Shown one piece after another: positions 12,515 to 32,844 of a stretch of 37,646 bases of DNA. Position 1 is the first letter of the stretch. Each line of letters opens with the position of its first letter. This DNA comes from Verrucomicrobiales bacterium (GTDB taxonomy: Bacteria; Verrucomicrobiota; Verrucomicrobiia; Limisphaerales; CAIMTB01). Location of the stretch: contig JADLFD010000255.1 in the NCBI GenBank assembly GCA_020845805.1, positions 1 to 37,646 on the forward strand, read 5' to 3'. Under the pieces are notes generated by a model. That model made no database searches and was not told the DNA's origin. It saw only the letters and a program-made list of their open reading frames with translations. Position numbers and translations under genes: made by a program.

Positions 12515-12525
12515 GCGTGACAGGA

Positions 12526-14043: not shown

Positions 14044-15422
14044 AAGTCATCCTCCCTGTAAGCCACAGTTCTGACTTCGCTCCCGGTCACGCGGACCACC
14101 ACCTCCACCCGTCGCACCGCCCCCGTCCCCGGCATACGCCCCTCACCCAGGATACGATGCGTCTCCGATCGCGCCGTCACCCGCGGCGCCAACTGCTTGA
14201 ACGTCTCCTCGGTGATCCCGGGCACGAGCAGAAGGTGGGCAATGTTGGGAAGTGAACCGTTGGAGGACCGATAGGAGATCAGCGCCTGTGCCAACTCGCG
14301 AGTCATGCCCGGCAAACACCTCAAGACCTCCAACCCTGCGCTGTTGACGTTCACCACGCCCACCAACTCCTCCTCGTCACTCGTCGTCACCTCATCCGCG
14401 ATGTCCCGCAGCAGATTCGCATCGATCACCTTCGGTCCGTTGTTCTCAGGCGGTCCCCCAGGCCTGGGTGCCTCCGCAGCTGGATTCCCCTCCGGTCCTC
14501 CCGGCCCCCCTTGACCCGGCCCCGCCGCGGGCGCCTGCCGGACCTCGAGCAAATCGGCCACGCTGTCCAACGAGCCACGACCCCGATGCGCCACGATCGC
14601 CTTCGCAATCTCCGCCGTGATGCCCTGCACCCCGGTCAGGGCCGATTCATCCGCCGTCTTCAGATTCACTCGGGATCGTCCCGACGCACTCACATTGGCC
14701 ACCGCCGAACGCACGGTGAGTGACCCGGCCCAACCGCGATCCGCCGCCGGTTGCCGGATGGGCTCAGACTCCCCCTCGACTTCGCCCTCGACCGAATCCA
14801 CCTCCCGGAATCCCGTGCCTTGCGTGTCGTCCCCAAACAGGTCCTCCGACCTCACGCCGCGCACCATGAGCAACTCGCGGATCGTTTCGAGCGGACCGTC
14901 GCGGATCCGCACCGGATTGCGCCCCACGGCATAGTAGTCCGCCTCCGCACCTCCCGGCCCGGGCGACTGATCTCCATCCCGCCAGTCCAGAATCGCGGCC
15001 ACCACGTCCGAGGTCATCCCTTCGAGGCGCAGCAACTCCTCCGCCGAGGCGACGTTCACATTCAACCGGCTCTCCTCATCGCTCACCCCGTACACCATGC
15101 CGCCGCCTTCGTCCGCGCGCGCCGCCCGCACCACGCTGTATCGCCCGCGACCCAGTGGAATGTCTTGGAACTGGTCCGGGGCATCCGCCAACGCCCGTCC
15201 ATGGCTCTGCGCTGATCGGCTGCGCTGGCGGGCGTCCTGGTACAGTAGCGCCTTCGCCTTCTCCACTCCCGCCAGGGCCAGATAGCGCGCCTGCACGGCG
15301 TCCCCATGATGCCGCACGCTCATCAAACCCATCCGCGACGAATGCAGCACGCCGATCACCAACAGCGACAGCAACGCCATGCACCACAACAACGCCACCA
15401 GGACTGAGCCACGCTCGCGCAT
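14040..15422 (-). CDS. gspK: Type II secretion minor pseudopilin GspK
   Basis: The 460-residue protein starts with a short leader and hydrophobic helix (MRERG then SVLVALLWCMALLSLL). The likely prepilin peptidase site is after Gly 5. There is no Glu at +5, which is normal for GspK. Three helix-hairpin-helix-like segments follow: LNVNVASAEELLRLEGM, VNLKTADESALTGVQGI and VNVNSAGLEVLRCLPGM. GspK caps the pseudopilus tip together with GspI and GspJ. It is longer than typical GspK (about 330), mainly because of a third helix-hairpin-helix and a Gly/Pro-rich insert at about 295-330. It lies 3 bases downstream of gspJ and overlaps gspL by 4. Confidence 0.85.
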   Translation of the reverse strand: MRERGSVLVALLWCMALLSLLVIGVLHSSRMGLMSVRHHGDAVQARYLALAGVEKAKALLYQDARQRSRSAQSHGRALADAPDQFQDIPLGRGRYSVVRAARADEGGGMVYGVSDEESRLNVNVASAEELLRLEGMTSDVVAAILDWRDGDQSPGPGGAEADYYAVGRNPVRIRDGPLETIRELLMVRGVRSEDLFGDDTQGTGFREVDSVEGEVEGESEPIRQPAADRGWAGSLTVRSAVANVSASGRSRVNLKTADESALTGVQGITAEIAKAIVAHRGRGSLDSVADLLEVRQAPAAGPGQGGPGGPEGNPAAEAPRPGGPPENNGPKVIDANLLRDIADEVTTSDEEELVGVVNVNSAGLEVLRCLPGMTRELAQALISYRSSNGSLPNIAHLLLVPGITEETFKQLAPRVTARSETHRILGEGRMPGTGAVRRVEVVVRVTGSEVRTVAYREDDL

Positions 15423-15425
15423 GCG

Positions 15426-16250
15426 TCAGTTCCCTCCCCCTTCCGGCGTCGCACCAGGGGTGGCTGCCCCCGATCCGCCGGAGGCGGACGGCACCGAGGC
15501 CAGGACCAGCCTCGCCACCGTCTGAAACACCATCGCCGGCTCGGGTTCCACCGCCTCGGACTCGCTCCCCGCGCTGTCTTCCCCCCGCCGCCGCCTGGGA
15601 TTGGGATCCAACGCCAGCGTGATGCGCACCGCTTCGGGCATCCCCGTCAGATTGGAACGCTCCCGCCGCGAACTCTCCGCCTTGCCCCGGCCTTCCGTGT
15701 CCCCCCAACTCTCGTACCACTCGAACCCGTCATAGTGCTCGATTCGCAGGGCCCGGATCCCCGTCACCATCACGTCCTTCCGTCCCCCGCGCGGTCCCTC
15801 CAATGGCAGGCCGGGATGACTCCGCCGACACAACGCCAGCAAGCCCGTGCGCTCGTCCTGCTCAATGAAGTAACTCACGGCGCAATAGTCACCCTCCCCC
15901 TCGCGGGTGGGGGTGAAATGGTGCGTCGCAAAATCCAGACTGTCCGCTTCCACCCCGCCCACGGTCCGATCGACGCCCAAAAACTCGGAATCCCCCGGCA
16001 GGGCACACGCCGATCGCAACTCGGCCGCCATGCGGTCCAGCACCACCCGCGCCCCTTGCGCGGCCTCCAACCGCGGATCCATCAGCTTCTGAGTGGCGAG
16101 CGCGGCGCTCAGACAGGCGTACCCCGCCGCCAAAATGACTCCCATCAGCGCCGCGCTGATCATCAACTCCACCAGCGTGAACCCACGCCGGGAATCCCGG
16201 AAGCTCCCGCCCAAGGCCTCTCTTGTCCCCTCGCGACACCGCCACCTCAC
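15426..16250 (-). CDS. gspJ: Type II secretion minor pseudopilin GspJ
   Basis: The 274-residue prepilin-like protein has a 23-residue basic leader. The cleavage site SRRG|FTLVELM has Gly at -1 and Glu at +5, and the hydrophobic helix ISAALMGVILAAGYACLSAAL follows. GspJ forms the pseudopilus tip complex with GspI and GspK. The globular part includes AQGARVVLDRMAAELRSA, a typical GspJ/PilW-like segment that follows the helix. The C-terminus is rich in Glu, Arg and Pro/Gly and likely disordered. The start codon is GTG at 16250, which overlaps the gspI stop (GTGA), so translation is probably coupled. Confidence 0.85.
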   Translation of the reverse strand: MRWRCREGTREALGGSFRDSRRGFTLVELMISAALMGVILAAGYACLSAALATQKLMDPRLEAAQGARVVLDRMAAELRSACALPGDSEFLGVDRTVGGVEADSLDFATHHFTPTREGEGDYCAVSYFIEQDERTGLLALCRRSHPGLPLEGPRGGRKDVMVTGIRALRIEHYDGFEWYESWGDTEGRGKAESSRRERSNLTGMPEAVRITLALDPNPRRRRGEDSAGSESEAVEPEPAMVFQTVARLVLASVPSASGGSGAATPGATPEGGGN

Positions 16251-16762
16251 GAGCCACCGCCTCTCCGCGCACGCCGCTGCGCCTCGCGTTCCCGCCGTGA
16301 TTCCGTCTCGGTGGTGCCCAGCGGCACTTCGAACAACAACGTGCGCAACTCGTACACCGCCCCCCCGTCATCAGCCGATTCAATGGTCACCGCCACCTCA
16401 TGCAACCCCTCGATGCCCGCGTCCGAAATGCGCTGCCTCCACCGGTACTTCGTCAGATCCCCACCACACGTACCTTCCGTCTCGCCATCAGTGAGATATC
16501 CCTCCGCCCGCAACAACTCCACCTGGCCCGCCGCAAAAAGTGACGCCGCCGTCTGCAACTCGGTCTCCTTGGCCGACTTCAACGCCGTGGCCAACCCCTG
16601 CGTCAATCCCACCACCCCCACGCCAAGCACCAGAATGGCGCACATGACCTCGACCAACGAGAAACCCCGCGCACCACCCAGCCGCCGCCAACCCGCGTTC
16701 GGTCGCGCCGCACCACGCCGCGCCGCACCAAACCGACCCCCCATGTCCAGTGGCGAGTTCAT
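16247..16762 (-). CDS. gspI: Type II secretion minor pseudopilin GspI
   Basis: The 171-residue pseudopilin has a long basic leader of 33 residues and the site GARG|FSLVEVM (Gly at -1, Glu at +5), followed by the hydrophobic helix CAILVLGVGVVGLTQGLATAL. The globular domain is short, as expected for GspI, which nucleates the pseudopilus tip with GspJ and GspK. The ATG at 16762 overlaps the gspH stop (ATGA). An internal ATG at 16744 would shorten the leader by six residues. The last 20 or so residues are strongly basic (RREREAQRRARRGGGS). Confidence 0.85.
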   Translation of the reverse strand: MNSPLDMGGRFGAARRGAARPNAGWRRLGGARGFSLVEVMCAILVLGVGVVGLTQGLATALKSAKETELQTAASLFAAGQVELLRAEGYLTDGETEGTCGGDLTKYRWRQRISDAGIEGLHEVAVTIESADDGGAVYELRTLLFEVPLGTTETESRREREAQRRARRGGGS

Positions 16763-17379
16763 CGGCGGGGAACCTCCGTCACACGCATTCGCCCGGTCAC
16801 CGGATTCACCTGCACGGCCAACCCGAACCCGCTCCGGTCGCGCAACACGATGTCGTCCCCCTCCGCCGTGCCGTCCGGATGGAAAACCAGCGCCATCGGC
16901 GGCGCCGACTCTCTCCCCTCCTGCATCCCCCTCGGACGCGGCGCGTCCGCACCCTCGGCCTCGCCCCCGGCCTCCAACCCCGGAGGACGGCTCTGAACAC
17001 TGATCCGGTCGTCAATCTGACCGTGGCCGTCCGGAACATCCCGCACCCTCACGAACCCCCCGCCCCCGCGCGCGCCCCGCACCCGGCGTTCCAACTGGAA
17101 GTGTCCCGTGACCGGGTCGAACCGGATGCGATGCACCTGGTTCAGACTCACCGCGCGGCTCTGCGCGATGCCGCAAGCGTCCACGACCTCCCGCGCCGAA
17201 GCGCGTAATAGGGCGTCCTCCAGGCTGCCCCGCATCTCGGGAATGACCAGCGCGGTGAGAATGGCCATGACCACCACCACCACGATCATCTCGACCAGGG
17301 TGAAGGCCCGCGCCCGCACCCTCACTCGGGACCACCGCGCTGGAGCCAGGATTCGCATGTCGTAAAACTCGAATCGCAC
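16759..17379 (-). CDS. gspH: Type II secretion pseudopilin GspH
   Basis: The 206-residue pseudopilin has processing site RARA|FTLVEMI, with alanine rather than glycine at -1 and Glu at +5, followed by the helix VVVVVMAILTALVIPEMRG. The segment ALLRASAREVVDACGIAQSRAV is typical of GspH, and two beta-rich stretches follow (HRIRFDPVTGHFQLERR and MALVFHPDGTAEGDDIVL). A Gly/Arg-rich loop lies between. The GTG start at 17379 is 3 bases past the gspG stop; ATG 17358 is an equally possible start that shortens the leader to 18 residues. It overlaps gspI by 4 bases. Confidence 0.85.
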   Translation of the reverse strand: MRFEFYDMRILAPARWSRVRVRARAFTLVEMIVVVVVMAILTALVIPEMRGSLEDALLRASAREVVDACGIAQSRAVSLNQVHRIRFDPVTGHFQLERRVRGARGGGGFVRVRDVPDGHGQIDDRISVQSRPPGLEAGGEAEGADAPRPRGMQEGRESAPPMALVFHPDGTAEGDDIVLRDRSGFGLAVQVNPVTGRMRVTEVPRR

Positions 17380-17382
17380 CGG

Positions 17383-17814
17383 TCACCAGTTCCCAATATC
17401 CGCCCCCTCCCCCTCGCCCCCGTCCGAGCTGTCACTCCCGCGCGACCAGAGATCGTAACCCTTGGGATTGCGCGTGCCGGGACTGCGATACTGGTAGGGA
17501 TTGCCCCAGGGATCCGGGATGGCCTTGTCGATGTAAGGCCCCCGCCACTTCTTGTCGTCCCCCGATGGAGCCTCCACGAGAATCTTCAGGCCTTCGTCCG
17601 TGGTGGGGTAGCGATCCAGGTGGACGTTGAAGCGCTCGAGCGCTCCGCGGAACTCGGCGATATGCGCCTTCGCGGCGCCCACCTTGGCGTCATAGGTGGT
17701 GCTCACGAACTTCGGGATCACCGTCGCCGCCAGGACGCCGATGATGATCACCACCACCATGATCTCGATCAGAGTGAACGCCGATTCCGGCGTCCGTTTG
17801 CTTTGGGTTCTCAT
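17383..17814 (-). CDS. gspG: Type II secretion major pseudopilin GspG
   Basis: The 143-residue protein is the main subunit of the pseudopilus. The leader is 12 residues and the cleavage site is ESA|FTLIEIMV, with alanine at -1. The helix VVIIIGVLAATVIPKF follows, then the conserved segment FNVHLDRYPTTDEGL and the calcium-site region DPWGNPYQYRSPG. The C-terminus (WSRGSDSSDGGEGEGADIGNW) matches the usual GspG ending. Length and motifs are normal for the family. It begins 50 bases after gspF, the largest internal gap of the operon, which may carry a separate translation signal because the major pilin is needed in excess. Confidence 0.95.
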   Translation of the reverse strand: MRTQSKRTPESAFTLIEIMVVVIIIGVLAATVIPKFVSTTYDAKVGAAKAHIAEFRGALERFNVHLDRYPTTDEGLKILVEAPSGDDKKWRGPYIDKAIPDPWGNPYQYRSPGTRNPKGYDLWSRGSDSSDGGEGEGADIGNW

Positions 17815-17864
17815 ACGGAAAGGGTTCGATCTGGGTCTCAGTCCGGAAATGAGCTCAGGGGGAG

Positions 17865-19109
17865 TCAGCGCATCGTTCGACTGATGTTCAGGATGGGCAG
17901 CAACAACGCGATGACCATGAACCCCACCAGCGCGCCCACCACCAGGATAAGCACCGGCGCGAGCAGCGACACCAAGGTCTTCGTCCTGCCCCGCGTCTCA
18001 CGCTCCTGGATCTCCGCCACCTTCAGCAGCATGTCATCCAACCGACCTGTCTCCTCGCCCACCTCGACCATCTGCACCACGCCGCGAGGGAAAAGCCCCA
18101 GCTTGCGCAGCGGCGTTGCCAGGGAATCCCCGCCCTTGGTCTCTTCGGCGACGCGTGCAATCTGGGCCGACAACACGCGATTGCCGATCGTCTCCTCCAC
18201 GATGCGCAACGAGGGCAGCAGCGAGACGCCGGCGCGGACCAGAGTGCCCAGCGTGCGCGCGAATCGCGCCAGTGCCGACGCGCGGAACACCGCCCCCACC
18301 AGGGGCAGGCGCAGTTTCCATCCATCCCAGGCCGCCGCCCCTGCCGCCGTCCCAAGATATCGCCAGAGCGCAAACCCTAGACCAAGGCCCGCCACCAGCA
18401 TCAGTCCCCAGTGGTCTCGGAAAAACCCGCTCACCCCCAACAGAATCCGCGTGGGCAGCGGCAAGGTGCCCATGTCGCGCAGCATGCCCGAGAGCTTCGG
18501 CAGTACGAAGGTCAACAACACCACCACCGTGACCAGTCCGAATCCCAGGACAAACACGGGATACGCCACCGCGGTCACCACCTCGCTCCGCACCTCGTCC
18601 TCGTGCTCCATCAGCGCCGCCAGATCGTCCATGACCTTGGGCAGCACCCCTGCCTCCTCCCCGACACGCACCATGCTGATATAAAGCCGGCTGAACATCG
18701 CCGGGTGCTCCTCCAAGGCTCCAGATAGCGATATCCCCTTCCTCACCGCCGCCGCCATTCGCGTCACCGCCTCGCGCATCGCCGCGTTCTCCTCCTCCTC
18801 CGCCAAACTGTCCAACGCCTGCGGAATCGGGATCGCCGCCCCCAACAACGCGCTGATCTTGCGCGTGAACGCGGTGATCTCCTTCCTCCGCACACGCCCC
18901 CCCGGCCTCGACTCCACCACCACCACTCCCGTCGCGGCTCCCGCTCCCGCCGCCTCCGGGACTCTCGTTCCACGCACGGGCTCCAGACGCGAAGGAAACA
19001 GCCCGCGCTGCCCCAGCAACCGAAGCGCGGTGCGACGGTCCTCGGCCTCGATCACCCCCTCCACGGCCGCGCCGTTGCCCTGCATGGCCTGGTACTTGAA
19101 GGCACTCAT
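17865..19109 (-). CDS. gspF: Type II secretion inner-membrane platform protein GspF
   Basis: The 414-residue protein begins MSAFKYQAMQGNG, the usual GspF/PilC start, and contains two copies of the T2SSF domain (about 80-205 and 285-405). Family segments are visible: FTRKISALLGAAIPIPQALDSL, MVRVGEEAGVLP, FARTLGTLVRAGVSLLPSL and MVEVGEETGRLDDML. Three hydrophobic stretches cross the membrane: about 175-200, near 225-250, and at the C-terminus (LVSLLAPVLILVVGALVGFMV). GspF is the polytopic platform that the GspE ATPase turns or pushes to assemble pseudopilins. The ATG overlaps the gspE stop by 4 bases. Confidence 0.95.
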   Translation of the reverse strand: MSAFKYQAMQGNGAAVEGVIEAEDRRTALRLLGQRGLFPSRLEPVRGTRVPEAAGAGAATGVVVVESRPGGRVRRKEITAFTRKISALLGAAIPIPQALDSLAEEEENAAMREAVTRMAAAVRKGISLSGALEEHPAMFSRLYISMVRVGEEAGVLPKVMDDLAALMEHEDEVRSEVVTAVAYPVFVLGFGLVTVVVLLTFVLPKLSGMLRDMGTLPLPTRILLGVSGFFRDHWGLMLVAGLGLGFALWRYLGTAAGAAAWDGWKLRLPLVGAVFRASALARFARTLGTLVRAGVSLLPSLRIVEETIGNRVLSAQIARVAEETKGGDSLATPLRKLGLFPRGVVQMVEVGEETGRLDDMLLKVAEIQERETRGRTKTLVSLLAPVLILVVGALVGFMVIALLLPILNISRTMR

Positions 19110-20704
19110 TCCAGCAGATCCCCGGATGACACCCGCAAAATCTCCTCCAACGAAGTCATGCCCGCGGCCGCCTTGCGCAGGCCATCCTGGTGCATGGTCA
19201 ACATGGTGCGCTGCGCCACCGCTTTCAGCTCGGCGTTCGACTGCTTGTGCAGGATCAACTCGCGCAACTCCGTGCTGATGGCCAGCAACTCATAAATGCC
19301 CACCCGCCCCCGGTACCCCGTTCCCCGGCACTCCTCGCACCCCGCCCCCGTGTAGTAAGCGTCCACCAGCGGCCGGCCACTCAAGGTCTCCATGCGTTCC
19401 CGCACCGCACTGGTGATCGCCGCCTCCACGCGGCACGCCGGACACAACCGCCGCACCAACCGCTGCGCCAGCACGCCGTCCAGCGAGGAGGATATCAAAA
19501 AGGCCTCCACTCCCATGTCCAGCAGACGCGTGACCGCCCCGGTCGCGTCGTTCGTGTGCAGCGTGCTGAACACCTGGTGCCCGGTGAGCGCCGCACGAAT
19601 GGCAATCTCCGCCGTCTCTGAATCCCGAATCTCCCCCACCATCACGATGTCCGGATCCTGCCGCAAAATAGCGCGCAGTCCGTTGGCAAAGGTGAAATTG
19701 CGACTCGGTCGCACCGGAATCTGCGCCACGCCCGCCAGCTCGTACTCGATGGGATCCTCGATGGTGATGATCTTCTTCTCGGTGGTGAAAATGCTCTGCA
19801 GAATCGAGTACAAGGTGGTGGTCTTGCCGCTCCCCGTCGGACCGGTCGCCAGAAACAACCCGTGCGGCTTTTCCACCAGCCTCTGCATCAACTTCACCCG
19901 CTCGACGTCCAACCCAAGCTCCTCCAGGGTGAGCACGCGCGACCCCTTCTCCAGGAGCCGCATCACCAGACTCTCCCCGTACTTGGTGGGCATGGTGCCC
20001 ACCCGAATATCCACACGGTGCCCGCGGTGATGAATCTGGATGTGCCCATCCTGCGGCATGAATCGCTCGGCGATGTTCATGTCCGCCATGATCTTCACGC
20101 GCGACACCAACGCGGCATGCAGATGCTTCGGCGGCGGCGGCTGGACCTGCAACAGACCATCACTCCGGTAGCGGAGCTCAATCGCCTCTTCGTACGGCAC
20201 GAGATGCACATCGCTCGCACGCTCGCGCAACGCCGTCGCCAGAATCACGTTCACCAGGTTGATGACCGTGGGCTCGTTGGCCATCACCTCGATGTCGTGG
20301 AGGTTCTTCCCCTCCACCACCGCCCCCCCGTCCGCATCCAGGTTCTCGAGCATCCGCTCGACCGTCACCTGATAGCACTCCCCCACCCGCTCGCGTACCG
20401 CCTCCGCCGGATACCGAACCAGCCCCACCTCCAGTCCGGTCAACAGCCGGACATCCTCGATCACCCGCGATGCCTCCCGCTCCGCGGGATCCCCCAGCGC
20501 CACCCGCAACACGCCCTCGCGCACGGACAACGGCAAAGCGTTGTTCTGTTTGGCAAACTCCGCCGGTAGCAGTCTAAGAACATCCGTCGGAACCACGGCC
20601 TCCAGCTCGGGAATCAATAGCCCGTTCCGCTCCGACGCGCTGCGCCGTGACGTCGCCCCGAACGCTTCCGGGTCGGACTCCGGCAATGGGTGGATGGTGC
20701 TCAT
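19106..20704 (-). CDS. gspE: Type II secretion ATPase GspE
   Basis: The 532-residue protein (ATG at 20704; a GTG at 20710 would add two residues) is the cytoplasmic hexameric ATPase that powers the system. It has the N1E-like domain (about 30-110) that binds GspL, then the ATPase core with Walker A ATGPTGSGKTTT (about 287-298), Asp box IIITIEDPIEYE-like segment, Walker B DPDIVMVGEIRD (about 350-361) and His box STLHTNDA. A tetracysteine zinc motif is present as CPAC (421, 424) and CEEC (456, 459), the GspE hallmark. It is the first gene of the operon; about 310 bases of non-coding DNA lie upstream and should hold the promoter. Confidence 0.95.
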   Translation of the reverse strand: MSTIHPLPESDPEAFGATSRRSASERNGLLIPELEAVVPTDVLRLLPAEFAKQNNALPLSVREGVLRVALGDPAEREASRVIEDVRLLTGLEVGLVRYPAEAVRERVGECYQVTVERMLENLDADGGAVVEGKNLHDIEVMANEPTVINLVNVILATALRERASDVHLVPYEEAIELRYRSDGLLQVQPPPPKHLHAALVSRVKIMADMNIAERFMPQDGHIQIHHRGHRVDIRVGTMPTKYGESLVMRLLEKGSRVLTLEELGLDVERVKLMQRLVEKPHGLFLATGPTGSGKTTTLYSILQSIFTTEKKIITIEDPIEYELAGVAQIPVRPSRNFTFANGLRAILRQDPDIVMVGEIRDSETAEIAIRAALTGHQVFSTLHTNDATGAVTRLLDMGVEAFLISSSLDGVLAQRLVRRLCPACRVEAAITSAVRERMETLSGRPLVDAYYTGAGCEECRGTGYRGRVGIYELLAISTELRELILHKQSNAELKAVAQRTMLTMHQDGLRKAAAGMTSLEEILRVSSGDLLE

Positions 20705-21015
20705 GGGCACAGGCCCGGCCCGGCTCCCGGGAGCTCAAAGTCGTGCCTAGGCGACCGCGAGCCACGGAGACACAGCGCCCACGGGGGATCCCGCGGAGGC
20801 CGTTGGGTACGAGCCATGGACGGAGTTAACCCCACTCCTGTTCAAAAGTTTCTTCCGGAACCAACGGCCCGGTGCTGAGGGGATCACGAACGTCTGAATA
20901 CGTGTGCCCACTTTTGTAAGCAATCCCAAAGGAGCCCGCCGAGCCATTCGTCACCGAAACCGATGCCCCCCCGCCGGCGCTAGTCGGTCCTGACTTCTCT
21001 TCGGTCACCCCCCCG
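20705..21015 (-). promoter_or_regulatory. Intergenic region upstream of the secretion operon
   Basis: About 310 bases separate gspE from the glucoamylase-family gene; both genes are on the minus strand. No convincing gene is present: the short open frames here lack start signals and recognisable content. The part at 20840-20940 is less GC-rich than its surroundings, as expected for a promoter. No box pair close enough to a consensus could be assigned, so the promoter is inferred from position only. No terminator for the upstream gene is evident. Confidence 0.35.
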
Positions 21016-24429: not shown

Positions 24430-25650
24430 CTACGGCGCCACCCGAACCCGAATAAAGCCACCACCGTCCGCAGAGGTGATCGGCACTTCCACAGTCTGGG
24501 CCCCGGACGCCACAGAAGGCCCCAGTGTCTTGTGATTTTCCCAGGCTACGAAGTCGCTCGATCGCTCCACGTGGTAAACCCCGCCGGCGACCGCGTCGAA
24601 GCGCACCTCCAAAACCCCGGGAGACGTCATCCCCACGGTGAGGTGCGGCGCCGTCACCACCGGCTTCACCGTGACCTCCACGTTGGCAGCATGACTCGTG
24701 ACCGAGCCCGCCGCGTTGCGCACGATCACCTGGTACGCTCCAGCCTCATTGGTCGTCGCTGCCGCGCGCGCCAGCACCGCCGCAGTTTCCCCGGTCAAAT
24801 CAGTTCCCTGGAACTGCCACTGATAACTGAAAGGTGCCGTCCCCGTGGCCTCGACGCTCAACTGCCAGGCCGCCCCCTCCTGGACAGTCACATCCAATGG
24901 CGGCGTGCTGATCGTCGGCGGAACCAGGACCGTGAGCGTCGCCGGTTCACTGGTCACCGCACCTCCGGAGCCGGTCACGATCACATCGTAGACCCCGGCC
25001 GCGTCGGCCGTGACCGCGGACAACGTCAGGGTGGGAGCGACCGCACCCGCGATGGCCGTGCCATCCTTGCGCCACTGATAGGTCAGACTCTCGCTGCCCG
25101 CAGCCGTCACTTGAAACACGGCCTCGGCACCGAGCACCACCTTCTGCCCCAGGGGCTGGGTCGAAATGGACGGCGGTGCCACGCCCGCCAGGACGTTGAT
25201 CACCATGGTGGCGCTCACCACTCGATCGCCCTTGCTGGTCGATTTCTCCTTCGCCGTAAGCTTCACTTGAAACTGTCCCGTCTCCGTCGGCGTTCCCTGG
25301 ATTCGCCACAACGGCTTGCCGGACGTGCCGGAAAGCGAAAGACCGAGGGGCAGCCCTGACGCCGTCCAGTAGCCCGCCTGGTCGGGCGCGGTCGTCAGGC
25401 GAAAACTGAACGGGACTCCGTTCGTGCCCTTGGCGGTCTTGGCGCTGGTCACGGTCGTCGAGGCGCCGGAAACCGCTTGGATTCCCCCCATCGCCGCCGC
25501 CGCGCCCGTCGCCCAGCGAAACACGATGGCCAAGACCTGTCCCGCCGACCGCGCGAAAGGCAAGGCGGCTCGGGTCAGCGGCAGAACCTGAAGCGCCACC
25601 GCGACCACCAACGACGGAAGTCGCATGCTCCGATACATCATTGTGCTCAT
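24430..25650 (-). CDS. Secreted Ig-domain protein
   Basis: This protein has about 406 residues from ATG 25650 (an ATG at 25719 would add 23 residues without signal character). After a signal peptide (MRLPSLVVAVALQVLPLTRA) comes an unusual helical segment (ARSAGQVLAIVFRW then ATGAAAAMGG). A putative Ig domain of the He_PIG kind follows (GLPLGLSLSGTSGKPLWRIQG, PTETGQFQVKLTA), then two Ig-like domains with the YQW core (SLTYQWRKDGTAIAG, APFSYQWQFQGTDLTG) and the AGVYDVIV / AGAYQVIV strand. The C-terminal module (YHVERSSDFVAWENH ... GFIRVRVAP) matches the recurring verrucomicrobial ending. It is likely an envelope or extracellular binding protein with no visible catalytic residues. It lies 97 bases downstream of dsbD and 97 bases upstream of the MBL gene, so it could belong to either transcription unit. 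Confidence 0.8.
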   Translation of the reverse strand: MSTMMYRSMRLPSLVVAVALQVLPLTRAALPFARSAGQVLAIVFRWATGAAAAMGGIQAVSGASTTVTSAKTAKGTNGVPFSFRLTTAPDQAGYWTASGLPLGLSLSGTSGKPLWRIQGTPTETGQFQVKLTAKEKSTSKGDRVVSATMVINVLAGVAPPSISTQPLGQKVVLGAEAVFQVTAAGSESLTYQWRKDGTAIAGAVAPTLTLSAVTADAAGVYDVIVTGSGGAVTSEPATLTVLVPPTISTPPLDVTVQEGAAWQLSVEATGTAPFSYQWQFQGTDLTGETAAVLARAAATTNEAGAYQVIVRNAAGSVTSHAANVEVTVKPVVTAPHLTVGMTSPGVLEVRFDAVAGGVYHVERSSDFVAWENHKTLGPSVASGAQTVEVPITSADGGGFIRVRVAP

Positions 25651-25747: not shown

Positions 25748-27502
25748 TCATGGGCGACGGGGCGGGGTCATCGCAGCTCCCGGCAGGGGCGCTCCCGCAG
25801 CCGCAAGGGGGCCCGGGGTCGCCGAATCCTCAGGCACCAGCAAAATGAAGGTCGGGAGCCCCAATACACCAAACTCCTCGAGAACGGGTTCCAGTTCCGC
25901 GTCGCCCAAATGCTCCGCCTGAAAACGAACCAACCGCACTTGCTCCAGGCGCCGCTGCACGCGTGCCTCGGCGAAGGTGGAATGCTCCATCGCCGAACAG
26001 TTCTTGCACCAGCTCGCCCAGAAATCGAGGACCACCGGGACCCTGGTCCGACGTGATTCCGCCAACGCCGACTTCAGCGTGCGCAGGTCCGCAGCCACAC
26101 CGCGGCGCGCGCCGTCCCCATAATCCAGCAAGCCCCACGCGAGCCAGCCGTACCAGGCGGCAAATCCGAAAATCACCACGCCGAAGGCCTGCTTCACCCG
26201 CGTCATCCAAGCCCCAGGCTTGGGTAACAACGACAATCCCGCCCCGGCCATGGGCCAGGGCAAGGCCATCCCCAATCCCAACAGAAAAGGCAGTCCCAGG
26301 CCGGTCCACTCGCCGCGCTGATACGCGGCCGTCGCCAATACCAGCACCGAGATCACCACCGGCGCGACGCACGCCCCCGCCAACAACGCGGAAACCCCTC
26401 CCATGGTCAACGCCGTCGCCATCGAACCCTTCGGTCGCTCCCTCCGCGGACCGCCTTTCTGGAGATTCGAAAAATCCAGAGACCATCGATCAAACATCGC
26501 CAGGCCGAGCAGCACAAAGACCCCCGCCATCGCCGCATTGAACCACATCGAGGATTGCAGTTGCCCAAAGCGCGCCCCCGTCAGCACCACCACCACGCCC
26601 ACCGTGCCATACGCCACCGCCATCCCTGCGCCATACGCCGAGCCCAGCAGAAACCCACGTCGCCGATCCCGATTCCCGCTCCCCACCCCCAGGATCGCGA
26701 GATTCACCGGGATCATCGGCAACACACAGGGCGTCAGATTGAGCAGCAGGCCACCGAGAAAGATCGCACCCATGGTCATTCCCAACTCCACCGCCGCACC
26801 GGCATCCCCAGGCACCGCCGGCGCCCCCAAAACCGGCCCCACTCGCTCGTGGTCCAGAAAACCCAGAAACTCGTCCGCACCAAGAAATCCCGTCGCCTTC
26901 GCGGCCACCCGGAATCCTTCCGCCAGCCTGGCCCTTCCCCCCACGCCCGGCACCCGGCCGCCCTCGACCGATTCCTCCGCCGCGCCGGACTGCCACACGC
27001 CGTCCGCTCCCACCCTCCACTCGCGTGTCTCGGGAAAGAAGCACTCGGACTCGTTGCAACCCTGGAACGTCACCTTCAACGGGCCCCCCGCCGAGCCCGG
27101 AACTTGTGCCCGCACAGTAAACGTTCCCTCGAGCACGAGACGTAACTTGCCGCTGAATCGATCCTTCACTTCCTCCGCCTTCGGCAAGCTGACCGCCAAG
27201 GTCTGCGCTCCCCACTCCACTCGCAGCGAATCCGCATACACGTGATGCTCGGCCGGCATGTTGAAACGGATCCCAACCTCCGACGTCTCGGCTGCCAAAC
27301 GCCGCCCTTCCACCATCACCACGAACGGATTCTCCGCCTCGGACTCCTCCGCTTCGCCCGCCACGGCCGTCGGTGACCAGGGGCTGACACCACCAACCGC
27401 CACCATGATCCCCAGCCAAGCCACCGCCCGCAGGCAGCCCATGACCGGGAATGCCACCTTCGCCCAACCCCACCCCCGCCACCCCTGGTACGCCTTGGTC
27501 AT
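25748..27502 (-). CDS. dsbD: Thiol:disulfide interchange protein DsbD
   Basis: The 584-residue protein has all three DsbD parts. After a signal sequence, the periplasmic alpha domain (about 55-170) has a cysteine pair in QGCNESECFFP (149 and 154). The membrane domain (about 240-455, roughly eight helices) has the cysteines of LTPCVLPMIP (259) and LLAGACVAPV (378). The C-terminal thioredoxin domain has FWASWCKNCSAME (499 and 502). DsbD carries electrons from cytoplasmic thioredoxin across the membrane to periplasmic thiol proteins. Length is near the E. coli protein (565). It starts 8 bases after the DUF4266 gene and ends the operon, so it is well placed to keep the TlpA-like protein, and perhaps the Cys-x-Cys lipoprotein, reduced. 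Confidence 0.92.
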   Translation of the reverse strand: MTKAYQGWRGWGWAKVAFPVMGCLRAVAWLGIMVAVGGVSPWSPTAVAGEAEESEAENPFVVMVEGRRLAAETSEVGIRFNMPAEHHVYADSLRVEWGAQTLAVSLPKAEEVKDRFSGKLRLVLEGTFTVRAQVPGSAGGPLKVTFQGCNESECFFPETREWRVGADGVWQSGAAEESVEGGRVPGVGGRARLAEGFRVAAKATGFLGADEFLGFLDHERVGPVLGAPAVPGDAGAAVELGMTMGAIFLGGLLLNLTPCVLPMIPVNLAILGVGSGNRDRRRGFLLGSAYGAGMAVAYGTVGVVVVLTGARFGQLQSSMWFNAAMAGVFVLLGLAMFDRWSLDFSNLQKGGPRRERPKGSMATALTMGGVSALLAGACVAPVVISVLVLATAAYQRGEWTGLGLPFLLGLGMALPWPMAGAGLSLLPKPGAWMTRVKQAFGVVIFGFAAWYGWLAWGLLDYGDGARRGVAADLRTLKSALAESRRTRVPVVLDFWASWCKNCSAMEHSTFAEARVQRRLEQVRLVRFQAEHLGDAELEPVLEEFGVLGLPTFILLVPEDSATPGPLAAAGAPLPGAAMTPPRRP

Positions 27503-27510
27503 CAGAAAAC

Positions 27511-27747
27511 TTAGTTACAACCGCAACCCCCGCCTCCCACCCCCTTGCCCCCTGTGGCCGCCTCGCGGGAAAACCACATGTGCTCCGACATCCCATTGCC
27601 CAGCGGATCCCGATCCGCTCGCATGACGCGGTCCGCCAAGTGCCCTCGATCCCACGGACTCACGTGCGCGCACCCCGTGGCCACCAGCGCCAGGAGCGCC
27701 CACGGAGCCAGGCGCCAAATTGTCCCCTGCCAGTTGCTCGCGTTCAT
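27511..27747 (-). CDS. DUF4266 small lipoprotein ending GGGGCGCN
   Basis: The 78-residue protein starts at ATG 27747, preceded by a good Shine-Dalgarno at 27757-27762; the GTG at 27798 that overlaps the tlpA-like stop is a weaker choice. It has a lipoprotein signal (WRLAPWALLALVATGC, lipobox Cys 26). The short mature part contains HVSPWDRGHLAD, MRADRDPL, a segment with His 56 and SREA, and the conserved C-terminal Gly-rich tail with a Cys-x-Cys (75 and 77). This matches the DUF4266 family, whose members are all this small and whose function is not known to me. The tail looks suited to binding a metal or forming a redox pair. Neighbours (DUF3570 barrel, ApbE-like, TlpA-like, DsbD) point to an envelope redox role. 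Confidence 0.88.
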   Translation of the reverse strand: MNASNWQGTIWRLAPWALLALVATGCAHVSPWDRGHLADRVMRADRDPLGNGMSEHMWFSREAATGGKGVGGGGCGCN

Positions 27748-27756
27748 TCCGGTCTT

Positions 27757-27762
27757 CTCCCC
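27757..27762 (-). promoter_or_regulatory. Ribosome binding site of the DUF4266 gene
   Basis: The minus strand reads GGGGAG, 9 bases before ATG 27747. Clear Shine-Dalgarno sites are rare elsewhere in this window. This one decides the start in favour of the ATG, which places the lipobox cysteine at residue 26, a normal lipoprotein signal length. Confidence 0.65.
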
Positions 27763-27794
27763 ATCAGATGGTTGTGGGCTCGCCGCACCTGGGC

Positions 27795-28301
27795 TCACTT
27801 CAGCAGAGCCTCGATCTCCTCCAGGTACTTCCGCTTCGTCTCCGCCCCTTTGAATCCGCGATGCACTGCGTGCACCTTTCCCTCGCGATCGATGAGGAAG
27901 GACGTGGGCATGGTGGGAATCTTCACCTGGCTCACCAACCGGTTGCCTGCATCACGCACGATGATGAATCCCGCGGTGTGCTTCTTGAGAAAGAGCTCCA
28001 TGTCCTCCTTCTTCTGATCCTCGTTCACCGCCACCACCACCAACCCTCGCGCACCGAACTTCTCGTGCAGCTCCTGCATGACCGGAAACGACTCCTGACA
28101 AGGCCCACACCAGGAGGCGAAGAAATCCACCAACACCACCTTCCCCTTCAACTCCGGCAAGGCTCCCTCCAAGCCCATCGCGCTCAGATCGGGAAAGGTC
28201 TCCCCCACCTTGGGCGTCGCCGCACGCGCCTGGTCGGTGAGAAGGGTAAGGAACAATACTGCCGCGACCAGCCGGCTAACGCGTCGTAACCAGGTATTCA
28301 T
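27795..28301 (-). CDS. TlpA-like exported thioredoxin
   Basis: The protein has 168 residues from ATG 28301 (a GTG at 28328 would add nine residues before the signal peptide). The signal peptide is MNTWLRRVSRLVAAVLFLTLL, with cleavage near QARA-ATP. The mature domain is a TlpA/ResA-like thioredoxin with VVLVDFFASWCGPCQE (Cys 65 and 68), VVVAVNEDQKKEDMELFL and the cis-proline segment IPTMPTSFLID. Such proteins reduce or isomerise periplasmic disulfides and receive electrons from DsbD or CcdA. The start lies inside the end of the ApbE-like gene (26-base overlap), so the pair is coupled. The operon also encodes DsbD, the likely electron donor. The client is unknown but may be the Cys-x-Cys DUF4266 lipoprotein. 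Confidence 0.88.
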   Translation of the reverse strand: MNTWLRRVSRLVAAVLFLTLLTDQARAATPKVGETFPDLSAMGLEGALPELKGKVVLVDFFASWCGPCQESFPVMQELHEKFGARGLVVVAVNEDQKKEDMELFLKKHTAGFIIVRDAGNRLVSQVKIPTMPTSFLIDREGKVHAVHRGFKGAETKRKYLEEIEALLK

Positions 28302-29271
28302 AAAATCTCGGAGTCGTGTGCGGACCACGTTCGGTGATCATCACGCCGTCCACTCCAAACTGACTCGAAAGCAATCGAAACCCCTCCTCCGGACCTAGCA
28401 CGAAGGCCGCCGTGGTCATCGCCCCCGCCTGCGTGCAGGTCGGCGCCACCGCCGTCACCGACAAGGCCCCTTGAGAGACCGGCTTGCCGTCGCGCGGATC
28501 GATGATGTGCCCATACCGCCGCCCCTCATGCACGAAATGCCGCAGGTAATCCCCCGAGGTGGCGACCGCGCGATCACATAACCCCACGCTCGCCCAACAA
28601 CTCCCCGGCTGACGCGGGTCCTCCAGTCCGATGTGCCAGGCCGGTCGACCCGGCGGTCGACCCAAGGCTCGAATGTCCTGCCCAAAATCCACCATCACTG
28701 CGGTCACTCCATGACGCTCGGCCAACAGCACGGCCCCATCCACGGCGTGCTCCTTCCCCACCCCACCGAGATCCAGCGCCATCCCCGATTTCGGCAAAAA
28801 GACCGCCCCCTCCCGACGCTGCAACATCCCCCACCCCACCAGTTCCTTGGCCCGCGCGATCTCGCTCTCCGCAGGAATCCGCGGTGGCTGCGCCTTCCAA
28901 TCCCAGAGTCGCAAGAGCGGCAGCGACGTCGCGTCGAAGGCCCCGCGCGTCAGGTGATGCAGGTGGCCGCACAAATCCAACAACTGCGAAACCTCCTCGT
29001 CGACCTCCACCCAGCGCACCCCCGCCGCCCGGTTGATGCGACTCACCACACTGTCCTCCAGAAAACGCGAACACTTCGCCTCGAAGTCCGCCACCCAGTT
29101 CAACAACTCGTCGAGAAAACCATTCGCCGCCTCCCTGCTCGGCTCCACCAGACTCACGCTGCAACGCGTGCCCAACGCGTGAAAGGTGAGGTGCGAAAGT
29201 CCGCCCTCCTCGCGAATCACCGCCGATCGACGAACCCGAGCCCGAACCGGATGACTCATGTTCAAAACCAT
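28276..29271 (-). CDS. apbE: ApbE-like FAD:protein FMN transferase
   Basis: The 331-residue protein shows the ApbE fold: FHALGTRCSVSLVEP, GAFDATSLPLLRLW, ALDLGGVGKEHAVD, VMVDFGQDIRALG, AVATSGDYLRHF (about 236-246) and RYGHIIDPRDGKPV (about 252-265). ApbE transfers FMN from FAD to a Ser/Thr in Dxx(S/T)GA(T/S) targets, with Mg2+. Two things are odd. The usual ADA(L)ST segment reads AGAMTTA (282-288), so the metal-binding Asp is Gly 283. No signal peptide or lipobox is visible, although most ApbE enzymes are exported; ATG 29259 is an alternative start but does not help. It overlaps the DUF3570 gene by 10 bases. The adjacent barrel carries a matching target motif. Family is certain; activity is less so. 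Confidence 0.85.
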   Translation of the reverse strand: MVLNMSHPVRARVRRSAVIREEGGLSHLTFHALGTRCSVSLVEPSREAANGFLDELLNWVADFEAKCSRFLEDSVVSRINRAAGVRWVEVDEEVSQLLDLCGHLHHLTRGAFDATSLPLLRLWDWKAQPPRIPAESEIARAKELVGWGMLQRREGAVFLPKSGMALDLGGVGKEHAVDGAVLLAERHGVTAVMVDFGQDIRALGRPPGRPAWHIGLEDPRQPGSCWASVGLCDRAVATSGDYLRHFVHEGRRYGHIIDPRDGKPVSQGALSVTAVAPTCTQAGAMTTAAFVLGPEEGFRLLSSQFGVDGVMITERGPHTTPRFYEYLVTTR

Positions 29272-30461
29272 ACCGCCACACTTCCACTCACCACATCCGC
29301 GGAGGGATACTGCGAGTCCGAGGTCACTCCATCCGTCCCTTCCATGACATAACGCTTGTAACCGACTTCCAACGACACGCGCTCATGCACGCGGGCGTTC
29401 ACACTCACCCCAAAGGTAAACGTGTTCAGCTCGGACAACCGGAAGTCGGCCGAATAGTGCTCCGGCAACGGAATGTCCGGACACCCAGGCTCGCCCTCCG
29501 GACAGGACGGATCGCCCCCGAAACTCGTACCGTAAAACTCGGCCGCCGACTGGGTATGGAATCGGAACAACGGCGAAATCGTCACGATCCGCCCCACCTT
29601 CTGATGCCACTCCAAACTTACCGTGTGCGCCCATATCCCCCAGTCGTCGTGGTGCCACCGGTACCCCACCTCCACTGCAGCGTCCAGCGTCTCGATGAAA
29701 TGACTTCCTCCCAGATAAAGCACCTGTCGGAACCGACTCCCAGGCCGCGACTCGGGAAACACGGTGTACGGTTCCCCTGGGGTGTAGGGAAAATCACGAA
29801 AGAGAACTCGCTTATATGGATCCGCTAGAAAGCCGTCGGTGTATCCCAAGGTCAGATTCGCAGTGACAGTGGTCTTCGGACCCAACAACTGGTTCACCCC
29901 GACCAGAAAATCCAGCGTATCCTTGTCCTCGACGTCCTCCAGCCGCGTCCCTTCACTGGGCAAGACGCGATCGAATGCGTGACTCACCCCCCAGGTCAGC
30001 GTGGTGTTCTTCTCATTGAAATCGATCGCGTGAGTCAGCGAAACACCGGTGGACTCGTAGTCCTGCTCCGCGCTGTAGGAAAACTGCGGCGTCAGCGTGT
30101 GCCGGTCGAATCGGAACGACGGCTCGACATAGCCGGCACGCCGGATGTCCTCAATGGTCACCGTCGCCACCTCGTTCTCCCCCGGCAACGGCGGCGCGCC
30201 GGTCGGCGTGGCACCCGAGATTGCGTCGTAAACGAAGTTTCCCTTCACCGACACCCACGGCGCCAGCCCCACCTCGAAAAAGGCCCCGTGCGTGCGAATA
30301 TGGATCCGCCCGTCGTCCTCCGCGTAATCCTCGTACCGGTACTCGACGCGGTCCTCCCCACGACACTTCCCAGCCAAACCCACGGCCACCAACCACGCGC
30401 CCAGCACCCAGGGTCGCCGCTGACTCAGCACCCCGCCCTTTAGTGTCCTCGTTGGTCTCAC
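29262..30461 (-). CDS. DUF3570 outer-membrane beta-barrel with a flavinylation-like motif
   Basis: The protein has 399 residues from GTG 30461, chosen because AAGGGAG ends 7 bases before it; the GTG at 30467 lies too close to that site. A signal-like hydrophobic stretch (WVLGAWLVAVGLAG) is followed by a chain of amphipathic strands (VSVKGNFVYDAISGAT, TLTPQFSYSAEQDYESTG, VSLTHAIDFNEKNTTLTWG, AAVEVGYRWHHDDWGIWAH, VSLEVGYKRYVM) ending in Phe (VAVWF), as outer-membrane barrels do. This pattern matches DUF3570. Residues 79-85 read D-A-I-S-G-A-T, the consensus modified by ApbE enzymes, and apbE is the next gene. A CxxxxxxC pair lies in DPSCPEGEPGCPDIP. First gene of the operon. Function unknown; a role as a redox-active or transport barrel is inferred. 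Confidence 0.85.
   Translation of the reverse strand: MRPTRTLKGGVLSQRRPWVLGAWLVAVGLAGKCRGEDRVEYRYEDYAEDDGRIHIRTHGAFFEVGLAPWVSVKGNFVYDAISGATPTGAPPLPGENEVATVTIEDIRRAGYVEPSFRFDRHTLTPQFSYSAEQDYESTGVSLTHAIDFNEKNTTLTWGVSHAFDRVLPSEGTRLEDVEDKDTLDFLVGVNQLLGPKTTVTANLTLGYTDGFLADPYKRVLFRDFPYTPGEPYTVFPESRPGSRFRQVLYLGGSHFIETLDAAVEVGYRWHHDDWGIWAHTVSLEWHQKVGRIVTISPLFRFHTQSAAEFYGTSFGGDPSCPEGEPGCPDIPLPEHYSADFRLSELNTFTFGVSVNARVHERVSLEVGYKRYVMEGTDGVTSDSQYPSADVVSGSVAVWF
30207..30227 (-). other. Flavinylation-type motif D-A-I-S-G-A-T in the DUF3570 gene
   Basis: The minus strand reads GAC GCA ATC TCG GGT GCC ACG, encoding DAISGAT. ApbE-type transferases attach FMN through a phosphoester to the final Thr/Ser of Dxx(S/T)GA(T/S), as in NqrC, RnfG and FMN-bind domains. 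Here the motif sits early in the mature barrel, just before a Pro/Gly-rich loop, in the gene immediately upstream of apbE. Modification is predicted, not shown. Confidence 0.55.
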
Positions 30462-30468
30462 TCCCACT

Positions 30469-30475: not shown

Positions 30476-30741
30476 AGCATGTTCGAGGCCAGAGCCGCCT
30501 CCCGCCCGCATGGCACCCTCGTTTGGGGAACCATCCCCAGTTTCACCCACCTTTCCACCCCGCGCACGGTCCCCATCCGGACCACCGCCTCGGGCCGGGA
30601 CCACTCGCGCGCCAGGATCGTGAACGGCAGGGGCAATTCTTGCACGCCCTCCCAAGCAGGTTGTGCACACCGCCATGCCCAAAAGCCCGCCTCGGCAACA
30701 CCACTTGCACGCCCGTCCGGTCCCGCCCATCGTCTCCCGCT
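30476..30741. promoter_or_regulatory. Divergent intergenic region between the redox operon and larBC
   Basis: About 270 bases lie between the DUF3570 start (minus strand) and larB (plus strand). No gene is recognisable. Both transcription units must start here or read in from elsewhere, so promoters for both are expected. I could not assign -35/-10 boxes with confidence in this GC-rich stretch, and no strong operator-like palindrome stands out. Confidence 0.35.
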
Positions 30742-31515
30742 GTGACTCCGGACCAAGCCCGAAGCCTGCTCACGTCCGTGCGCGAAGGACGCCTGACCAT
30801 CGAAAAGGCCCTCCAAGCATTCTCTGCCCCACCCGTGGAGGATCTGCCCTTCGCCGCGGTCGACCTGCATCGCACGCTCCGCAAGGGCTTCCCCGAGGTC
30901 ATCTTCGGCGCAGGGAAGACACCCGAGCAAACTGTTTCCATCGCCCGCAGAATCCTTTCCCAAGACGGCCAACTGCTCGTGACCCGCATCACTCCCGCCC
31001 ACGCCACACGCCTTCGCCGCACCTTCCGCAAAGCCGTCCACCACGAACTCGCTCGCTGCGTGACCGTGGAATCCCCCGCCCTCCCCAAGCGCCCTGGCCG
31101 CATCGCCGTCGTCGCCGCGGGCACCAGCGACCTGCCCGTGGCCGAGGAGGCCGCCATCACCGCCAGCATCATGGGGAATGAGGTCGTACGTCTCTACGAC
31201 GTGGGCGTCGCCGGAATTCACCGCCTCTTCCAACGGCTCGAGGACATCCGGTCCGCCCGCGTGGTGATCGTCGTGGCCGGCATGGAAGGCGCCCTCCCCA
31301 GCGTGGTCGGAGGCCTCATCCGTCGTCCCCTCATTGCCGTGCCCACCAGCATCGGCTACGGCGCCAACTTCGGCGGCCTCTCCGCCCTGCTCACTTCGCT
31401 CACCTCCTGTGCCAGCGGCCTCACGGTGGTGAATATCGATAACGGCTTCGGCGCCGGCTACGCCGCCAGCCAGATCAACGCGCTGGCCCAAGATGCCGCC
31501 GCTGGCCACGCCTAA
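30742..31515 (+). CDS. larB: Nickel-pincer cofactor biosynthesis protein LarB
   Basis: The protein has 257 residues from GTG 30742 (VTPDQARSLLTSVREGRL), which aligns with the normal LarB start. Earlier in-frame starts would add a Pro/His-rich stretch that looks non-coding. LarB carboxylates and hydrolyses nicotinic acid adenine dinucleotide to start pincer cofactor synthesis. The C-terminal half resembles PurE: IAVVAAGTSDLPVAEEAA, YDVGVAGIHRL, VVIVVAGMEGALPSVVGGL and PTSIGYGANFGGLSALL. The N-terminal region has DLHRTLRKGFPEVIFGAGKTPEQ. Length and motifs are those of the family. larC follows after 9 bases, so the two are co-transcribed. larE and larA are not in the window. Confidence 0.93.
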   Translation: MTPDQARSLLTSVREGRLTIEKALQAFSAPPVEDLPFAAVDLHRTLRKGFPEVIFGAGKTPEQTVSIARRILSQDGQLLVTRITPAHATRLRRTFRKAVHHELARCVTVESPALPKRPGRIAVVAAGTSDLPVAEEAAITASIMGNEVVRLYDVGVAGIHRLFQRLEDIRSARVVIVVAGMEGALPSVVGGLIRRPLIAVPTSIGYGANFGGLSALLTSLTSCASGLTVVNIDNGFGAGYAASQINALAQDAAAGHA

Positions 31516-31524
31516 TCTCCCCCA

Positions 31525-32844
31525 ATGCCCACGCTCTATCTCGACATCTTCAGTGGTATCAGTGGCGACATGTTCCTCGGTGCCATGCTCGACCTCGGCG
31601 TCCCCCTCGCCAACCTCGAGCAGGAATTACGCAAACTGCCTCTTCACGGCTACCACCTGCACGCCAGGCGCGCCTCCAAGGCTGGCATTGAGGGGGTGAA
31701 ACTGGATGTCCACATTGATCATGGCCCCGGCCAGGATCACGACCATCCACACGAACATGGTGAGGATCATGCGCACTCCCACCCGCACGGGCACACACCT
31801 CATCTCCCCCATTCCCATTCCCATTCCCACGACCCTCACCACGCCGCCCACGGACGGAGTTTCGCAGACATTCGCGACATGATCGCGCGCAGTGCGCTTT
31901 CCGAGTGGGTGCGAACCAAGGCAATCGCGGTCTTCCAACGCCTCGCGGTCGCGGAGGGGAAGATCCACGGCAAACCACCCGAATCCGTGCATTTCCACGA
32001 AGTGGGCGCCTTGGATTCCATCGTCGACATCACCGGGGCCTGCGTCGCGCTGGAACTCCTCGGCCGGCCCTTGGTACGTGCCGGCACGGTCGTGGATGGC
32101 ACCGGATTCGTGCGCTGCGCGCATGGGCGCATGCCGCTTCCCGCACCCGCCACGTTGGAGGTCTTCGCGGCGCGCGGCATCGGCGTCACCCAGTGCCCCG
32201 AGCCCCACGAACTCATCACGCCCACCGGGGCCGCATTGCTCGCCGAATTCGCCGAATCGTTCGGCCCGCTCCCCGGATTCGCCCCCACGCGCATCGGATA
32301 CGGCCTCGGTACTCGCGAAAACCATACGCGCCCCAACCTGCTCCGGGCCATGCTCGGCCAGGATGCCACGCCCAGCCCTGCCCCCGCGGTGGCGCACGAT
32401 TGGGAAACCGACGAAATCGCCGTCCTCGAAACCAATCTCGACGACCTCCCTGGCGAAATCCTCGGCCACGTCATGGAACGCGCGTTCTCCTTGGGCGCGC
32501 TCGACGTCTTCCACACTCCGATCCAGATGAAGAAGAACCGCCCAGGCACGGTCCTCACCATCTTATGCCTCGCCGATCAGGCGGACGCCTTCACCGCCCT
32601 GATGCTGACCGAGACCAGCGCCTTCGGAGTCCGTCGCACCCTGGCCTCGCGACGCAAACTCCGGCGCTCGCATCGCACCGTCGAGACCCGCTACGGCCCA
32701 GTGGAAATCAAGGAAGGCAGCTTGGACGGACACACCGTCCAAGTGGCGCCCGAGTTTGAATCGTGCCGCCTTCGTGCCCTCGCCACCGGAGCCACGGTGA
32801 AAGCCGTCTTCGAAGCCGCAAGACACGCGGCAGGTGCGCCCTGA
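31525..32844 (+). CDS. larC: Nickel-pincer cofactor nickel insertion protein LarC
   Basis: The 439-residue protein begins MPTLYLDIFSGISGDMFLGA, a clear LarC start. LarC is the CTP-dependent cyclometallase that inserts nickel into the pincer cofactor. Recognisable segments are HFHEVGALDSIVDITGACVALE, ELITPTGAALLAEFAE, IGYGLGTRE and, in the C-terminal part, LETNLDDLPGEILGHVMERAF and FHTPIQMKKNRPGTVLTIL. Residues 63-109 hold 19 histidines with Asp/Glu between them, presumably a nickel store or delivery segment. In Lactobacillus plantarum LarC is made by a ribosomal frameshift between two frames; here the gene is one continuous frame. It lies directly after larB. Confidence 0.95.
   Translation: MPTLYLDIFSGISGDMFLGAMLDLGVPLANLEQELRKLPLHGYHLHARRASKAGIEGVKLDVHIDHGPGQDHDHPHEHGEDHAHSHPHGHTPHLPHSHSHSHDPHHAAHGRSFADIRDMIARSALSEWVRTKAIAVFQRLAVAEGKIHGKPPESVHFHEVGALDSIVDITGACVALELLGRPLVRAGTVVDGTGFVRCAHGRMPLPAPATLEVFAARGIGVTQCPEPHELITPTGAALLAEFAESFGPLPGFAPTRIGYGLGTRENHTRPNLLRAMLGQDATPSPAPAVAHDWETDEIAVLETNLDDLPGEILGHVMERAFSLGALDVFHTPIQMKKNRPGTVLTILCLADQADAFTALMLTETSAFGVRRTLASRRKLRRSHRTVETRYGPVEIKEGSLDGHTVQVAPEFESCRLRALATGATVKAVFEAARHAAGAP

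Follow-up and report, generated by a model that had tools for sequence, protein, structure and literature searches.

Gene content of the locus

Five genes on the minus strand of contig JADLFD010000255.1 from a Verrucomicrobiales bacterium lie head to tail within the 37,646-nucleotide stretch that we analysed (referred to as the window in the rest of the text). Neighbouring genes overlap by 10 and 26 bases or leave gaps of 47 and 8 bases, and our gene calls agree exactly with the layout proposed in the initial annotation. Pfam matches were likewise obtained for all five of the families that it had named. The first gene (29262-30461, with an alternative start at 30467) codes for a DUF3570 outer-membrane β-barrel ending in WF, a predicted flavoprotein (PF12094, 1.6e-67), and is followed by a gene coding for an ApbE-type FAD:protein FMN transferase of what we call type 1, without signal peptide and with an altered metal site (28276-29271; PF02424, 4.2e-72). 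The next two genes code for a TlpA/ResA-like periplasmic thioredoxin carrying a WCGPC motif (27795-28301; Redoxin, 1.5e-18) and for a small DUF4266 lipoprotein with a Gly-rich tail, identified by profile and alignment (27511-27747; PF14086, 1.8e-19). The last gene (25748-27502) codes for a DsbD protein with three domains and six cysteines (DsbD_TM, 5.4e-40; DsbD_N, 1.3e-9; Thioredoxin_7). None of the five translated proteins contains a CxxCH heme motif, and a scan of the operon for promoters and terminators returned nothing above chance. Divergent larB/larC-like genes (AIRC domain; nickel insertion protein) occupy positions 30523-32844 of the plus strand, 55 bases from the first gene of the operon.

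Gene clusters coding for DUF3570, ApbE, thioredoxin-like, DUF4266 and DsbD proteins are already described in the excerpted passages of Meheust et al. 2021 (PMC8238504), the sole match for DUF3570 or DUF4266 in the collection of full-text papers that was searched. According to these excerpts, the DUF3570 protein of Chlorobium luteolum was shown to receive flavin from its cognate ApbE at two [S/T]GA[S/T] motifs, a hybrid thioredoxin/flavin system with a DsbD feed and an uncertain function was proposed, and 227 DsbD clusters with DUF3570, 316 clusters without DsbD and 25 clusters with iron transporters were reported. All members of the DsbD systems portrayed there, including a DUF4266 protein with a C-terminal CxC, are found in the window, where apbE also lies beside a DUF3570 gene bearing a [S/T]GA[S/T] motif. 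The five genes are a Verrucomicrobiota copy of a published, functionally unexplained redox system in which an outer-membrane barrel is furnished with flavin. The earlier remark that no function is established is right for the physiology but not for the system and its biochemistry, which appeared in 2021 (PMC8238504). The window departs from the excerpted description in that its DUF3570 protein has one [S/T]GA[S/T] motif instead of two; its ApbE without signal peptide and with an altered metal site, and an extra gene coding for an Ig-domain protein, have no counterpart in these excerpts.

Conservation of the gene neighbourhood

A scan of 388 Verrucomicrobiota genomes found DUF3570 in 42 of them, from which 44 loci were drawn. 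Same-strand partners of DUF3570 were DUF4266 in 41/44, ApbE in 40/44 and a TlpA-like protein in 38/44 loci, some of the absences falling at contig ends, which bears out the recurrent neighbourhood anticipated by the initial annotation. DsbD, which it had counted as part of the set, proved to be no constant member, since a full DsbD lies beside DUF3570 in 0/44 loci of the phylum scan; adjacency of DsbD was confined to the window, the close relative L002 and a Vibrio (L045). Two more DsbD_TM proteins are encoded elsewhere in the host genome. One DUF3570 contig scan gave Verrucomicrobiota loci only, and the loci outside the phylum came from Vibrio and Hymenobacter plasmid records, with DUF3570, DUF4266, ApbE and a thioredoxin in Hymenobacter. 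The five-gene set occurs far above chance and recurs across Verrucomicrobiota, in Vibrio and in Hymenobacter. Because the core set spans these lineages, it forms a real unit across phyla, in which DsbD is optional.

Wider clustering of neighbours at 62 loci revealed a single broadly recurring extra family, that of the Ig-domain protein (34/62); it yielded no metal-handling genes as recurrent neighbours, and iron transporters did not recur among the neighbours at the loci clustered. A type II secretion cluster (secretin, pseudopilin-like genes, T2SSF and T2SSE) lies downstream of the operon at 8087-20710 of the minus strand. A general link with type II secretion was rejected, pseudopilin-like genes being near DUF3570 in four loci only (about 5 kb upstream in L067, L076, L085 and L086). 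Some genomes contain two complete operon copies about 10 kb apart (L083/L084; L052/L053), each with its own Ig-family gene. A second lineage (L068, L069, L070, L090 and L091) has DUF4266 preceding DUF3570 and DUF3570 motifs of the SSAS and [ST]GAS forms; its ApbE is canonical and begins with a hydrophobic stretch in the four copies that were read.

The DUF3570 barrel and its flavinylation motif

An AlphaFold model of DUF3570 built with 11 sequences has 16 strands at a pLDDT of 77, and its best rows in structure comparison are the outer-membrane barrels PelB, AlgE-like, BcsC, BamA and OmpF (Z 16-21; 17-21 to solved barrels), a shared fold that carries no message on the function of DUF3570. Assuming the usual orientation with a periplasmic C-terminus, turns of 2-4 residues face the periplasm and all long loops (11-39 residues) are extracellular. 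The prediction thus has the even strand number, the short turns opposed to long loops and the terminal aromatic residue of an outer-membrane β-barrel.

Flavinylation follows the rule Dxx[S/T]GA[S/T], in which replacement of the Asp was tolerated in one tested protein (PMC12052999). The window protein contains the matching segment DAISGAT (residues 79-85, 30207-30227 of the minus strand) with Thr85 as predicted acceptor; a second TGA precedes Pro, leaving one motif in total. The acceptor Thr/Ser is kept in 57/57 readable homologues. Since DAISGAT closes strand 3 and is followed by the extracellular loop 87-99 (13 residues), the model would place it at the extracellular rim of the barrel, in a region where pLDDT is only about 59-68. 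The suggestion of a flavin-bearing barrel is therefore supported, both by the model with its clean motif and by the demonstration that DUF3570 is an ApbE substrate elsewhere (PMC8238504, excerpts).

Two types of ApbE

The window ApbE scores 243 bits against PF02424 (cut-off, 25.6) and 121.8 bits against the NCBIfam equivalog PRK10461, under its curated cut-off of 498. Alignment to Treponema pallidum Ftp (4xdt), from which the Ftp numbering below is taken with Gly166 placed four residues after Ala162, combined with covariation, singled out two positions. Gly283 (28423-28425, minus strand) stands at the place of Asp284, an Mg-binding ligand of Ftp, and Glu174, within a GKE segment (28750-28752, minus strand), stands at the place of Gly166. 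The same pair, Gly at the metal Asp (Ftp D284; FmnB D301) and Glu at Gly166, occurs in 49/56 aligned ApbE proteins with the metal Thr kept, and the catalytic Ser and His are retained within invariant SGDY and GHI segments. Every aligned type-1 sequence that has a residue at the position of the Asp has Gly. We infer that the Glu takes over from the Asp as metal ligand. Vibrio ApbE belongs to this Glu-containing 'E' type. The combination of Gly and Asp is found with the metal Thr, i.e. as a normal site, in L068, L069, L070 and L091 but without this Thr in the Hymenobacter protein L047, and both further ApbE genes in the genome of the host carry the usual AKG and AD.

The two types also differ at their N-termini. 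'D' copies start with a hydrophobic stretch, as in an export signal, whereas 'E' copies have no clear one and in most cases start within the DUF3570 stop region or shortly after it, with the exact 10-base overlap present in 14/55. The window ApbE likewise overlaps the DUF3570 stop and contains no hydrophobic N-terminal stretch, hence neither a signal peptide nor a lipobox, and for this reason FMN transfer by type-1 ApbE probably occurs in the cytosol, prior to export of the target. Cytosolic ApbEs are known, for example in Klebsiella pneumoniae, where the enzyme also lacks a signal peptide and its target is a soluble fumarate reductase (PMC12052999), whereas the proposed target here is exported. 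Periplasmic ApbE of Salmonella and Vibrio cholerae and T. pallidum Ftp belong to the same sequence family and have the catalytic Ser and His and the metal Thr in common with the window protein, which differs from them by its Gly, its Glu and its missing export signal. The assignment of this gene to flavin transfer calls for caution, as the protein has neither a signal peptide nor the Mg-binding Asp.

An Ig-domain protein accompanies the operon

Next after DsbD comes a gene that the initial annotation did not include in the set (24430-25650, minus strand); it codes for a protein with He_PIG and Ig_3 domains, which we propose as a sixth member. Its homologues were found at the 34 loci mentioned above, in most of them directly after DUF4266 and nearly always on the same strand. 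They share an N-terminal part, covered by no family in Pfam or NCBIfam, that consists of L-Q-x-x-P, a hydrophobic stretch and then xGA[TS]. In the 388-genome scan, strong matches to this part occurred in 25 genomes, two matches near E 1e-3 being left out of the count, and all were among the 42 bearing DUF3570. They represent 25/26 DUF3570-bearing genomes of its class, compared with 0/346 genomes without DUF3570 (Fisher, 1.7e-28, not corrected for kinship). The few copies on other contigs keep the motif as well. The Ig gene belongs to the conserved locus.

The corresponding segment of the window protein, QAVSGAS (25459-25479, minus strand), could be either a flavinylation motif or a signal-peptidase site. 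In 41 copies this segment has the pattern [HDNQ]-x-x-[ASVT]-G-A-T/S, apart from one tandem copy with SAAT (L133:2732-3754, minus strand), whose motif is DAYSAAT in place of xxxSGAT. Compared to the Dxx[S/T]GA[S/T] rule, the Asp is replaced by His, Asn or Gln in 30/41 copies and position 4 is Ala in 20. The residue at position 4 (A or S) covaries with the DUF3570 protein of the same locus (7:0 versus 4:8 distinct motif pairs, P = 0.013, not corrected for kinship). AlphaFold is uncertain at the motif, with residues 22-70 at pLDDT below 50. The Ig protein may be a second target of ApbE.

Alternatively, xGA[TS] could be no flavinylation site and instead the A-x-A site of signal peptidase I ending a long signal peptide, to which we assign an even chance. 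The motif comes after a basic residue and a hydrophobic stretch, and -3 is small or Val and -1 is Ala in 41/41 copies, all of which suits cleavage. However, cleavage requires neither the Gly found at -2 (40/41 copies) nor the Thr/Ser found at +1 (41/41 copies), yet both are kept in a segment otherwise 14-38% identical to the window copy (its nearest relative excepted), and the family tracks a flavinylation operon. We regard the signal-peptidase and flavinylation readings of the motif as equally good.

A proposed electron path and its alternatives

The DUF4266 protein has a lipobox and its chain ends in GGGGCGCN, which places a CxC pair, CGCN (27514-27525, minus strand), at the very C-terminus. 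Aligned copies terminate in GCGCN or GCGC[FY], with the exception of L046. The TlpA-like protein matches a ResA-like family at 7.1e-29, below the family cut-off. Unlike the window copy, the TlpA-like proteins of L005-L012 begin with a sequence of twin-arginine type (RRRFLR and similar).

We hypothesize that the operon provides a thiol-fed, flavin-based and cytochrome-free electron path to the outer membrane, a proposal that we hold to be as probable as its negation. Type-1 ApbE would attach FMN to Thr85 of DUF3570 in the cytosol, after which the protein would be exported and inserted in the outer membrane with its FMN near the extracellular mouth, as the modelled topology suggests. Thiol electrons could cross the inner membrane through DsbD or another reductase and reach the TlpA-like protein, which may hand them to the C-terminal CGC of DUF4266, the Gly-rich tail of the latter acting as a putative swinging arm between the periplasmic thioredoxin and the barrel. 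The FMN might then reduce an acceptor that lies outside or is bound to the barrel, perhaps Fe(III); both this acceptor and the direction of flow are conjectural. This path is proposed because the gene set and families match the system in which C. luteolum DUF3570 is flavinylated (PMC8238504, excerpts) and because the core is on the same strand in nearly all 44 loci. It also draws on the invariant acceptor, the 16-strand model with its motif before a long loop and the barrel matches, as well as on the terminal CGC, the adjacency of DsbD here and in Vibrio and the lack of CxxCH in the five proteins. We count against it that DsbD is usually not adjacent, that the ApbE has lost its metal Asp and that the model has low pLDDT at the motif. 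MtrCAB-type porin-cytochrome conduits, in which a barrel plus carriers pass electrons across the outer membrane, resemble the proposed path by analogy only, heme serving there where thiols and covalent flavin are envisaged here.

The thiol proteins could instead form a maturation branch, in which the cysteines of DUF4266 are held in the reduced state by DsbD and TlpA, ready for metal binding or docking to the barrel, just as TlpA/Sco proteins act for copper sites. Reducing the cysteines of a maturing site is the usual role of TlpA/ResA-like proteins, the terminal CGC could bind a metal and the optional nature of DsbD would fit; nevertheless, the constant pairing with ApbE and a flavinylated protein family, without any metal-handling gene recurring nearby, makes this branch rather unlikely in our estimate, albeit the strongest competitor of the electron path. 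Electrons could also run the opposite way, the flavin barrel oxidizing the CGC of DUF4266 as part of a disulfide-forming or quenching system of the outer envelope. Flavins do act as oxidants in sulfhydryl oxidases and the sequence does not fix the direction, but both the TlpA/ResA-like protein and DsbD belong to reductive types, and we consider such a reversal improbable.

Similarly low is the probability that we grant to a type-1 ApbE no longer efficient at FMN transfer, which would bind FAD or act as a chaperone while DUF3570 acquires its flavin otherwise or has none. Gly replaces the metal Asp in nearly all type-1 copies, and in FmnB, whose ligands include D301, replacement of the residues that bind the metal by alanine 'greatly reduced or even abolished' activity (PMC8906456). 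Against such a loss, the site keeps its Thr, Ser and His, the acceptor Thr/Ser of DUF3570 is retained throughout its homologues and a new conserved Glu has appeared near the metal site.

Meaning of the locus

DUF3570 systems make up hundreds of gene clusters to which no physiological role has been assigned. While their core is already published, the variant form of ApbE, the topology of the barrel and the Ig protein that co-occurs with the operon are new here. With a flavin predicted to be exposed at the surface, a thiol feed line and a further candidate substrate, the system is open to test. We tentatively suggest, as an idea with clearly less than even prospects, that an ApbE variant whose metal site has been rebuilt acts in the cytosol and flavinylates both the DUF3570 barrel and a class-specific Ig protein before export, giving a cytochrome-free, thiol-fed route to the Verrucomicrobiota surface. 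If true, flavinylation prior to export by an ApbE with a replaced Mg-binding Asp would alter the understanding of flavinylation, and a cytochrome-free route would be added to those by which electrons reach the cell surface.
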